A stretch of DNA of 24,496 nt from a virus. The stretch lies in the IMG/VR virus record IMGVR_UViG_3300045135_001772, positions 1 to 24,496 of that record. One strand, written 5' to 3'. The notes below the pieces were generated by a model. That model searched no databases, was not told where the DNA came from, and saw only the letters and a list, made by a program, of their open reading frames with translations. Of the stretch, positions 7,693-23,681 are shown in pieces (positions within the stretch are counted from its first letter, which is position 1; each line of letters begins with the position of its first letter). Both the position numbers and the translations under genes were made by a program.

Positions 7693-7721
7693 TTGCACTT
7701 TTCATAATAATTTTATACAAT
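7693..7721 (+). promoter_or_regulatory. Sigma70-like promoter for hsp20
   Basis: TTGCAC at 7693-7698, a 17-base spacer, and TACAAT at 7716-7721. Start near 7728, giving a leader of about 54 bases. A perfect TATAAT at 7750-7755 also exists but lacks a matching -35. Confidence 0.5.
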
Positions 7722-7727
7722 GTCTAT

Positions 7728-7781
7728 GTAAGTTGCCGTTAGGGACTTATATAATTTCTTGCTGTTATAAAGGAGAAAAAA
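7728..7781 (+). promoter_or_regulatory. ROSE-like RNA thermometer in the hsp20 leader
   Basis: The leader folds into two hairpins. The first pairs TAAGT (7729-7733) with ACTTA (7745-7749), then U34-G44, a bulged G35, and CC (7736-7737) with GG (7742-7743). The second hides the ribosome binding site: TTTC-TT-G-CT (7755-7763) pairs with AGGAGAAA (7771-7778), leaving G7761 bulged. The stretch CUUGCU facing AGGAG is the signature of ROSE elements, the heat-labile thermometers before small heat-shock genes in alpha- and gammaproteobacteria, where UUGCU pairs weakly with the Shine-Dalgarno sequence. Melting at higher temperature would allow translation. Motif and gene context agree; function is inferred. 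Confidence 0.6.
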
Positions 7782-8186
7782 ATGACAGGACAATTCGCTA
7801 TTCGTAAAGCTGGATTTATCGGCTTTGATCATATTCTAAATGAATTAGAACAAATCTCACAACATGCTATGGATCACTATCCACCTCACAACATCGTCAA
7901 GTACGATGAGCATGAGTTTGCCATTGAGATTGCAGTTGCGGGCTTCACAAAAGATGAAGTATCAGCTGAACTTAAAGAAGGAGTGTTAACCGTAGTAGGT
8001 GAACATGTATCTCGTGGTCGTGAGTTTATTCATCGTGGAATTAGTACAAAGAAGTTTAAACGTCAGTTTCGTCTGTCTGAGCACACTCAAGTGCATGGAG
8101 CTGAAATTAAGGATGGTCTACTAGTGATTAATCTCAAAGTAGTTATTCCTGAAGAGCAGCGTCCTCGTTTAATTGAGATCAAATAA
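7782..8186 (+). CDS. hsp20: Small heat-shock protein Hsp20 (alpha-crystallin family)
   Basis: A 134-residue IbpA/Hsp20-like ATP-independent chaperone that would hold unfolding proteins. The alpha-crystallin domain runs from about residue 38 to 132: NIVKYDEHEFAIEIAVAGF is the first strand pair, ELKEGVLTVVGEH the next, and GAEIKDGLLVINLKVVIPEE contains the conserved A-x-x-x-G-x-L. The tail ends RPRLIEIK, with a degenerate I-x-I-like anchor. The N-terminal arm (GFDHILNELEQIS) matches IbpA-type arms. Hsp20 is a common auxiliary gene in marine T4-like phages. It has its own promoter and a candidate thermometer leader. Confidence 0.95.
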   Translation: MTGQFAIRKAGFIGFDHILNELEQISQHAMDHYPPHNIVKYDEHEFAIEIAVAGFTKDEVSAELKEGVLTVVGEHVSRGREFIHRGISTKKFKRQFRLSEHTQVHGAEIKDGLLVINLKVVIPEEQRPRLIEIK

Positions 8187-20782: not shown

Positions 20783-20825
20783 AAATTGTAGTATGATATA
20801 TGTACTAAATTTTAAGGAGATACAC

Positions 20826-21728
20826 ATGAAGAACATCAAATGGATTCTTTATCACGAACCTGTTGAAATTTTCTATCGCACTGCTCAACATTTTGAGCGT
20901 GAGGTGAATCGTCTATCAGGCAATAAATTTAACTTTGAAATTCTTGAGTTGAAAGACTACGAAGCAAAGTATAACAATAATCAACCGTGTGATTTATTAA
21001 ATGAACTACGTACTGGTCGAGTTCAAATGAGTCAAATGTATACGATGGGTCTTGCTTTTTCAAATGCTTCAGACTTTTTAGCATTAGGATTACCTTTCTT
21101 GTTTAGGGACCATGCTCACGCAAGTAGAGTTTTTGAAGGTAAAGTTGGTGAGGAACTATTAGAACACGTTAGAGATACACTAAATGTAAAAGGATTAAGC
21201 TTTACATACTCTGGTGGTTATAAAGTAATGGCAAGTGATACTCCAATCAAATCAATAAATGATTTTAATGGACTAACTCATTCTGGCACTAGTAACTCAC
21301 TTTGGAATGATATTTTTGAACAGCTTGGTTCTAAATCAACTGAGTTTGGTTCTCATAATATCACACAAACTACCTTACCTCGTTATCATGCAGACGCTCG
21401 CTCGACACAAAAGTTCTGTACTGATACACAACACTCTATGTATTTAACTTCTATTCTCATGAATCAAGATATGTGGAGCGACTTTGATGATGAAACTAAA
21501 GCGATTTTTAAAGAATCATCTAAAGTAGTAGCTAGACAAGAGCGTAAACAGAGTGTTGCTGATGCTGAAGAGATTGCATCAACAACTTATCGTGAACACG
21601 GTATTGATCAGATTTTTGACTTGTCTGAATCAGATCAAATGGTATTACGTTCAAAACTTACTCCTTTAATTGAAAAGTGGAAGCCTTATTTCACACCTGG
21701 ATTAGTTGATAAAATACAAGCTGCTTAA
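20826..21728 (+). CDS. TRAP-type DctP-like substrate-binding protein without signal peptide
   Basis: A 300-residue protein with AAGGAG before its ATG. It looks like a DctP-family periplasmic binding protein of TRAP transporters: DLLNELRTGRVQMSQMYTMG is the typical second helix-strand, LGLPFLFRDHAHASRVFEG is the family's hallmark, then SGGYKVMASDTPIKSINDFN and a C-terminal helix (VADAEEIASTTYREHGI). No TRAP membrane subunit is nearby. The protein opens MKNIKWILYHEPVEIFY with no signal peptide, so it should stay in the cytoplasm and cannot serve transport in the ordinary way. DctP homologues are known in marine T4-like phages. TATGAT at 20792-20797 could be part of a weak promoter. Confidence 0.85.
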   Translation: MKNIKWILYHEPVEIFYRTAQHFEREVNRLSGNKFNFEILELKDYEAKYNNNQPCDLLNELRTGRVQMSQMYTMGLAFSNASDFLALGLPFLFRDHAHASRVFEGKVGEELLEHVRDTLNVKGLSFTYSGGYKVMASDTPIKSINDFNGLTHSGTSNSLWNDIFEQLGSKSTEFGSHNITQTTLPRYHADARSTQKFCTDTQHSMYLTSILMNQDMWSDFDDETKAIFKESSKVVARQERKQSVADAEEIASTTYREHGIDQIFDLSESDQMVLRSKLTPLIEKWKPYFTPGLVDKIQAA

Positions 21729-22594: not shown

Positions 22595-22603
22595 TGATAT
22601 TAT
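22575..22603 (+). promoter_or_regulatory. Sigma70-like promoter for large structured RNA
   Basis: TTGCTC at 22575-22580, a 17-base spacer, and TATTAT at 22598-22603. Predicted start about 22610, just ahead of the first hairpin of the RNA. Confidence 0.6.
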
Positions 22604-22609
22604 GTTTTT

Positions 22610-23075
22610 AGAAAATGAGATGAGGCATCATCCTCTGGGCATATGCAACCTTCGGGTATACGTGCGAAAGTTAAAACCAGTTAATGATGCAACGGAGTCA
22701 CGGAACCGGTCTCAGCCTCCTCTTCATTTTCCCCTGCTCTGGGTGACTGAGCCGTGTACCAAACGTCATAGGGTATCCAGGCACGGATTAACAGCTTCCC
22801 AAGCCCCACCTACGAGGCTGCTTGTTAAATATCGCTGGAGTAGGCGCATCGCACAACGCGCAACCGTGCCATCGGCTCTTGAGGGGCAGGGGAAACGATG
22901 TAAAAAACATCCCCAGTTTTTCATCAGGTGTGCTCCTTGGCGGCTGTCGCCTACCACCGTTTAAGTTGAGCACCCTACCACGGCAAGGACTAAGACGTTG
23001 GTTTCGTACAACCATTTTTGGGACGTATGGAAACTGTGCGGTTAGTTCACTCAACAGGCGGGCGAGGGGGCTGTG
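22610..23075 (+). ncRNA. Candidate large ornate non-coding RNA (about 470 nt), class unknown
   Basis: This stretch is clearly GC-richer than the genes: 22741-22920 counts 98 of 180. It has no supported ORF. Helices seen: GAGATGA (22617-22623) with TCAT-c-CTC (22628-22635); ACC-UUCG-GGT (22648-22657), a UUCG tetraloop; AGTCAC (22696-22701) with GTGACT (22743-22748); CCGTGTACC (22752-22760) with GGTA and CACGG (22772-22786); TTAAC-AGC (22788-22795) with GCTG and GTTAA (22817-22828), knotted by CCTAC (22809-22813) pairing GTAGG (22840-22844); GGGG-aaac-GATGT (22889-22901) with ACATCCCC (22907-22914); GTGCTC (22930-22935) with GAGCAC (22968-22973) around GGCG/CGCC (22939-22951). Size, pseudoknot and phage setting recall GOLLD or ROOL RNAs, but I cannot assign it. 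Confidence 0.75.
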
Positions 23076-23681
23076 TTGGGATCTCAAAGTGATTTTGTTG
23101 CTGTAGTTTTTGCAAGACAAGGTGCTGGGGGAGAATTTTTAATGTCTCTATTAAAATCTCACAACAGTAATCTTTGGGATGGGTTTAAGTTTCACTGTTT
23201 TCAACATATTTACACAGGTCCAGAAGAACAACTCTTAAAATTACATCATCATAATCCTAAATTTATTAACGACATTCCATTAGAATTACAACAACCTTTT
23301 GACTATACTTTTGATTTTGAAAGTTGGTCTACTACTGTTCCAAATATCTTTTTACGCTTTGACTTTGAATTACTTAAAAGATTTAGGCAGTACAGAATAA
23401 AAAGACATAGATTGGCTCATATGTTTGCAAATTCATGTGAGCAGTTTGATAAATTATTTGATGAGAGCTTGTTTATCTGTGATAAAAATACTACAGTGAT
23501 TGATTACTTCAATCCTTTGGATACCTACGCTGAGATATGTGATAGATTAGCACTATCAAGTAATGTTAAGCATTTTAAAAATGCTTGGATTAGTTACTAC
23601 AAGTTTCAGATGATGACTGTTCCAAAGTCTGATATTGAATTAAGGGATAGATTTAGAACAGCAATTAAAAATTTAGTTTGA
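23073..23681 (+). CDS. P-loop/sulfotransferase-like protein (weak), unusual start
   Basis: About 202 residues. The N-terminus FVAVVFARQGAGGEFLMSLL resembles the nucleotide-binding strand-loop-helix of sulfotransferase-like P-loop proteins, but the loop lacks a Lys. Later segments (FESWSTTVPNIFLRFDFELL, then LFICDKNTTVIDYFNPLD) fit an alpha/beta fold. Start is uncertain: GTG at 23073 or TTG at 23076, following GAGGGGG; an ATG at 23142 would remove the loop. The start lies inside the 3' hairpin of the structured RNA, so its translation may depend on that RNA. Function unknown. Confidence 0.55.
   Translation: MLGSQSDFVAVVFARQGAGGEFLMSLLKSHNSNLWDGFKFHCFQHIYTGPEEQLLKLHHHNPKFINDIPLELQQPFDYTFDFESWSTTVPNIFLRFDFELLKRFRQYRIKRHRLAHMFANSCEQFDKLFDESLFICDKNTTVIDYFNPLDTYAEICDRLALSSNVKHFKNAWISYYKFQMMTVPKSDIELRDRFRTAIKNLV

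Follow-up and report, generated by a model that had tools for sequence, protein, structure and literature searches.

The window, the whole 24.5-kb stretch analysed here, is a linear, A/T-rich phage fragment that carries hsp20, a small heat-shock gene, with an intergenic leader directly upstream of it. The features of this leader and its gene are as follows.

7693-7721, + strand: putative sigma-70-type promoter (TTGCAC 7693-7698, 17-nt spacer, TACAAT 7716-7721), read from the sequence and alike in relatives.
7729-7749, + strand: hairpin I, with bulged G7735 and loop GUUA (7738-7741), conserved and covarying across leaders.
7755-7778, + strand: hairpin II, the proposed thermosensing hairpin, with G7761 bulged and loop 7764-7770, based on sequence, RNAfold, covariation and a conserved UYGCU/AGGA core.
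7759-7763, + strand: anti-Shine-Dalgarno UUGCU, the ROSE core motif, which fits the published U(U/C)GCU (PMC3669281, PMC11342760).
7762-7788, + strand: competing start-codon hairpin, CUGUUAU (7762-7768) with AUGACAG (7782-7788), predicted by RNAfold, its sequence common to L001-L006 and to this clade only.
7771-7775, + strand: Shine-Dalgarno (SD) sequence AGGAG of hsp20, from the sequence.
7782-8186, + strand: hsp20, small heat-shock protein of 134 aa (Pfam HSP20 PF00011, E 5.7e-16).

In hairpin I, UUGCC (7733-7737) faces GGGA (7742-7745); pairs U7734-G7744, C7736-G7743 and C7737-G7742 surround the bulge, an outer stem joins 7729-7733 with 7745-7749, and the hairpin may extend to 7725-7753. 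Hairpin II is built from an inner set of pairs, U7763-A7771, C7762-G7772, U7760-G7773 and U7759-A7774, and an outer set, C7758-G7775, U7757-A7776, U7756-A7777 and U7755-A7778. The initial annotation had described the leader as two hairpins, the second setting CUUGCU (7758-7763) against AGGAG (7771-7775) with G7761 bulged and the first repeating the bulged-G motif. A check of the sequence found these base coordinates exact and confirmed the repeat around G7735 (U-G, bulged G, C-G), and both hairpins are present in the RNAfold minimum-energy fold of 7728-7784. The window sequence alone makes a weak case, hardly above chance, since the z-score of this fold is only about −1.5. The predicted fold also flips once coding bases to 7790 are added, freeing the SD and burying the AUG. 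It is the comparison of sequences across leaders that turns this weak single-sequence case into a strong one.

Elsewhere in the window, the intergenic segment 7112-7180 (fold z = −5.1) is predicted to fold into two stable hairpins, GACUCGAAAGAGUC and a long stem with UUUCUUUUU at its end, and can be read as a terminator and perhaps also as a small RNA. A GC-rich segment at 22600-23090 is devoid of a convincing ORF, has a fold z of only −0.7 and gave no Rfam match and no tRNA; possible explanations are a large non-coding RNA, an intron and sequence of foreign origin. The product of 20793-21725 is a TRAP-transporter solute-binding protein of the DctP type (Pfam E 9.5e-30), an unusual phage cargo.

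The hsp20 gene is widespread in marine T4-like phages, with 507 phage records matching it. An IMG/VR protein search yielded 80 loci whose hsp20 products are 64-98% identical, from which 77 usable leaders, including that of the window, were chosen by protein only. All 77 carry U(U/C)GCU 3-12 nt before AGGA. Among cultured phages the motif precedes the SD in 11 of 14 leaders and in 11 of the 12 tabulated (S-SM1, S-CAM1, ACG-2014d, P-SSM2, S-CREM1, S-B05, C48C1, Melnitz-3, HTVC008M, HTVC103P and HTVC115P), and it is also present in the single-cell virus AG-345-L05. In S-B68, the twelfth tabulated, UACGCU faces GAGGU, so that SD and partner have both changed and the pairing is compensated, as it is in HTVC103P, where AUCGCU faces AGGAU. 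The element is absent from the hsp20 leaders of S-TIM5 and Vibrio phage PWH3a-P1, and therefore not every phage hsp20 bears one. Where hairpin II could be aligned, in 68 distinct sequences, its bulged G is invariant and is flanked by a U-G pair in 61 and a C-G pair in 7. Two of these loci have further RNA elements in their neighbourhood: some 400 bases upstream of its hsp20, a close relative of the window carries a glutamine riboswitch (L006:2525-2572) that scores above the cut-off with 43.4 bits, and P-SSM2 carries a manA RNA motif (L227:1-82) upstream of a purL-like gene that precedes hsp20. Genes associated with manA in an earlier survey include ibpA chaperones (PMC2864571).

Hairpin I was never used to pick loci. 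In a non-redundant set of 106 leaders that are less than 80% alike, a parser that demands an outer stem, a bulged G, a C-G pair and an inner stem recognised it in 102; dinucleotide shuffles processed identically passed in 8.8% of cases. Loops and spacers differ in length, so that RNAalifold found no consensus structure in a MAFFT alignment of the raw leaders, and the alignment was anchored on the two bulges instead. In the 68 distinct anchored sequences 98.5% of cells are paired, and double-sided changes occur at five of the seven hairpin I pairs; in hairpin II, where the fixed SD leaves little room for variation, they occur at three pairs. Such anchoring adapts the alignment to the structure and biases the covariation figures upward, and they are therefore read against shuffled and slid controls: the whole-structure score of 0.508 falls to 0.146 when the 3' letters are shuffled and does not exceed 0.097 when partners are slid, and double-change cells number 171 versus 47. 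The leaders thereby resemble the ROSE-like class, with its two to four hairpins, in having an upstream hairpin, here a covarying one.

Hairpin I follows the promoter closely. T4 late transcripts begin a few bases past the late box, and a late-promoter box of the T4 type (TATAAATA or a close variant of it) lies upstream of hairpin I in 69 of 102 leaders, ending 3-7 nt before it in 67 of these 69 (mode 5). This would place hairpin I at the 5' end of the mRNA. Within the 25-nt stretch examined, the box occurs in 68 leaders, against 3.8% in shuffles. A sigma-70-like arrangement takes the place of the late box in the window and in its close relatives, with TTGCCC, TTGACT or TTGACA and TATACT at the same place in L001-L006 (TTGACA/TATACT in L006). 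In the window itself this promoter is weak, and a generic promoter scan of the window did not list TTGCAC/TACAAT (3/6 at −35). Its −10-like box ends 7 nt before hairpin I, and the 54-nt length of the leader presumes a start near 7728, with which TTGCAC-17-TACAAT is compatible. A transcription start downstream of 7758, the circumstance that the initial annotation had held against its own proposal, is therefore unlikely given the late boxes upstream of hairpin I. The same boxes bear on a start within the leader at the TATAAT-like sequence 7750-7755, which would leave the mRNA devoid of the anti-SD strand. TATAAT is a perfect −10 hexamer, but it has no −35 hexamer at 16-18 nt and is not kept in relatives, whereas the anti-SD downstream of it is; such a start is highly improbable.

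The element is near-exclusively tied to chaperone genes. An IMG/VR scan with the pattern UCUUGCU-N4..12-AAAGGAGA (TCTTGCT in DNA) found at least 120 matches, and 82 of the 120 listed lie where an ORF of 60 aa or more begins. At least 76 of these 82 gene starts belong to chaperones (hsp20, dnaK, groES), 75 by an automatic rule and one more being the dnaK of L090; L102 and L144 look like divergent hsp20. When GC was swapped to CG in the control pattern UCUUCGU, 17 of 120 listed matches were at an ORF start and none of the 17 was a chaperone. The comparison of related phage leaders that the initial annotation had proposed thus came out in its favour, with UYGCU opposite the SD throughout the protein-selected set, a covarying hairpin I and a chaperone association that the scrambled control does not share. 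Between promoter and start codon these genes carry a conserved, covarying two-hairpin structure.

A covariance model, R1, trained on 33 hsp20 leaders including that of the window, extends this association to genes outside its training: it scores 41.2 bits before dnaK in L090, 33.4 in L141 and 32.4 in L123, and 26.5 before groES in L186. In complete or long phage records the hsp20 leader is the top match; the two secondary matches examined, in ACG-2014d and S-SM1, were dismissed, both lying inside coding genes. In the window's record the window leader, itself a training sequence, is the sole match at E up to 10 (26.5 bits, E 6.9e-6). Most of the nearest bacterial Hsp20s come from Alphaproteobacteria, and for several of them a UYGCU is visible by eye ahead of the SD; R1 found no match in eight genomes bearing these Hsp20s. 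A further R1 match, L197:278-334 (− strand; 28.8 bits), precedes an 82-aa protein that has no Pfam match, and its leader is the best candidate for a non-chaperone gene behind such an element. The Rhodobacteraceae bacterium Water_Bin34 genome (L202) has six R1 sites on separate contigs, which suggests that phage contigs were binned into this draft genome.

In freshwater phages the same device precedes other chaperones. In contigs L088, L123, L160, L181 and L190 the genes dnaK, hsp20 and clpS follow one another, and dnaK and hsp20 each have an R1 site of their own upstream; one of the two sites in L160 is weak (E 0.086). L186:1327-3294 holds a groES-groEL pair with one R1 site, a ROSE-like leader. 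Neighbours of phage type (a virion protein, exonucleases, ribosomal protein S21) support the phage identity of the dnaK and groES contigs. L123 and L090 additionally bear clpX and ribosomal protein S21 genes. Both dnaK and hsp20 have been reported from large aquatic phages, where thermometers are not mentioned (PMC12619734).

These features suggest a model in which the 5' leader of the phage hsp20 mRNA is probably a two-hairpin ROSE-like RNA thermometer that opens with heat. In ROSE-like elements the SD hairpin opens on warming, and deletion of the bulged G lowers or abolishes induction (PMC3669281, PMC11342760); in Pseudomonas aeruginosa ibpA this deletion leaves only 1.4-fold induction, while hairpin I stays unmelted (PMC3669281). 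In a crystal structure the bulged G lies next to a U-G pair, which weakens stacking (PMC11342760). The phage leaders share these published features, and the same mechanism is therefore the best inference. Transcription would begin just upstream of hairpin I, the more stable, 5'-terminal hairpin, which is likely to assist folding or protect the transcript. Hairpin II would pair UUGCU with the SD at low temperature, its helix kept marginal by the bulged G7761 beside a U-G wobble, and warming would open it and allow ribosomes to start hsp20. We infer that Hsp20 would rise in infected cells in this way, through RNA opening that acts independently of a host heat-shock sigma factor.

Energy modelling gives a different picture of the SD. 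In a melting simulation that included 33 coding bases, the SD had a median unpaired probability of 0.44 at 25 °C versus 0.38 in upstream-shuffled leaders; real leaders were not separated from shuffled ones, and SD occlusion was no stronger in them. Nearest-neighbour energies give the bulged-G motif no special treatment. For the window the modelled SD is free and the AUG paired, and the start-codon hairpin preferred in its clade may be an artefact or a second block to initiation at low temperature. It is possible, if rather unlikely, that in this clade the switch is this hairpin, with the AUG hidden and the SD in the loop, alone or exchanging with hairpin II, which would still be a thermometer, only a different one. 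It is the predicted minimum-energy fold when coding bases are included, its sequence is kept in L001-L006, and an Anabaena thermometer that chiefly blocks the start codon is known (PMC4166951). Against this, the other leaders are devoid of CUGUUA and do not have the hairpin, and it shows no compensatory changes in seven close sequences; ATGACAGG is present in relatives that lack the partner strand and may therefore be retained for coding.

A structured leader that does not sense temperature appears improbable. In such a leader, hairpin I would stabilise the mRNA and hairpin II would set a low, temperature-independent level of translation, or the element would bind a regulatory protein. The place of hairpin I at the predicted mRNA 5' end agrees with this, as does a modelled SD exposure that shifts only gradually with temperature. 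Yet hsp20, dnaK and groES are the heat-shock set, to which a general translational repressor would not stay confined, and the conserved bulged G beside U-G is a known destabilising ROSE feature (PMC11342760). Mere chance complementarity between a U-rich sequence and the SD, for which the single-sequence z of the window leaves room, is scarcely credible, being contradicted by the covariation, the frequency of hairpin I relative to shuffles, the scrambled-pattern control and the R1 results.

If the ROSE-like thermometer reading holds, the mRNA would act as its own heat sensor and tune phage chaperone output by temperature during infection without the host heat-shock sigma factor, and temperature effects on marine phage infection would become directly testable. 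Judged by their leaders, phages appear to bear their own heat sensors: the same device precedes hsp20 across marine T4-like phages, and in freshwater phages it precedes dnaK and groES. A broader proposal is somewhat favoured: that tailed phages carry a heat-shock regulon of their own, with ROSE-like leaders at +1 of late promoters controlling hsp20 throughout marine T4-like phages and, in freshwater phages, dnaK (accompanied by hsp20 and clpS) and groESL, which would keep chaperones temperature-responsive after host transcription is shut off. The conserved pair of hairpins is a ready search tool for more phage cases. The open-access papers on cyanophage small heat-shock proteins did not examine the hsp20 leader, and no report of ROSE elements in phages was found in the open-access literature. 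ROSE has been said to accompany small heat-shock genes of bacteria without exception (PMC4166951). It is not confined to hsp20, as ABC-transporter cases (PMC11342760) and ROSE-G (PMC12857270) show, and ROSE elements on dnaK and groES would, beside the ABC-transporter cases, contradict that statement.

A comparison with known thermometers defines how far the kinship goes. The initial annotation's proposal of a ROSE-like thermometer before a phage hsp20 stands as to structure, position and gene association, but the Infernal search it suggested failed: neither Rfam ROSE (RF00435, gathering score 45) nor ROSE_3 (RF02523, gathering score 43) matches the window. At gathering threshold Rfam gave no ROSE match in the window and 20 loci, and an E-value search of the window leader returned only SD-driven chance matches. 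ROSE_3 nevertheless aligns over its full length (1-69) with the leader of Melnitz, a Methylophilales phage (34.1 bits, E 7.8e-6), the best score among the phage leaders tested, none of which reaches 43, and it aligns at the correct place in S-SM1 with 15.2 bits. Its order is that of the phage leaders, with hairpin I (GAUGCC..GGGUC) and its bulged G followed by CUYGCU..AGGAG and the AUG, and these alignments indicate that both hairpins, with the bulges, are common to ROSE_3 and the phage leaders. The rhizobial multi-hairpin ROSE (RF00435) has the same UYGCU/AGGA core, but with three to four hairpins over 94 positions.

More distant systems share single features. The ROSE-like thermometers of ABC transporters (PMC11342760) and ROSE-G (PMC12857270) have the bulged-G anti-SD motif, but belong to bacterial transporters, and ROSE-G has CUGCU and a double bulge. 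The FourU type was rejected, since it needs four consecutive U paired with AGGA and the anti-SD here is UUGCU. Phage lambda cIII (Altuvia 1989), as far as the account in PMC4166951 goes, likewise has a temperature-responsive leader in a phage mRNA; in that account its structure is unrelated, with two alternative folds and translation that goes down at high temperature.

On its sequence, the element is a phage-borne variant of the short two-hairpin ROSE-like class outside any Rfam family; it is filed as a variant without family membership because its scores lie below the curated cut-off. Its closest counterpart is the short ROSE-like element of Pseudomonas ibpA (PMC3669281), which also has a leader of about 60 nt, two hairpins, a small heat-shock gene, a 3' hairpin in which U(U/C)GCU pairs with the SD, a bulged G and an unpaired AUG. 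The Pseudomonas element is bacterial, with sigma-32 promoters and a GC-rich hairpin I, whereas the phage elements combine sigma-70-like or T4-type late promoters with a shorter, A/U-rich hairpin II.
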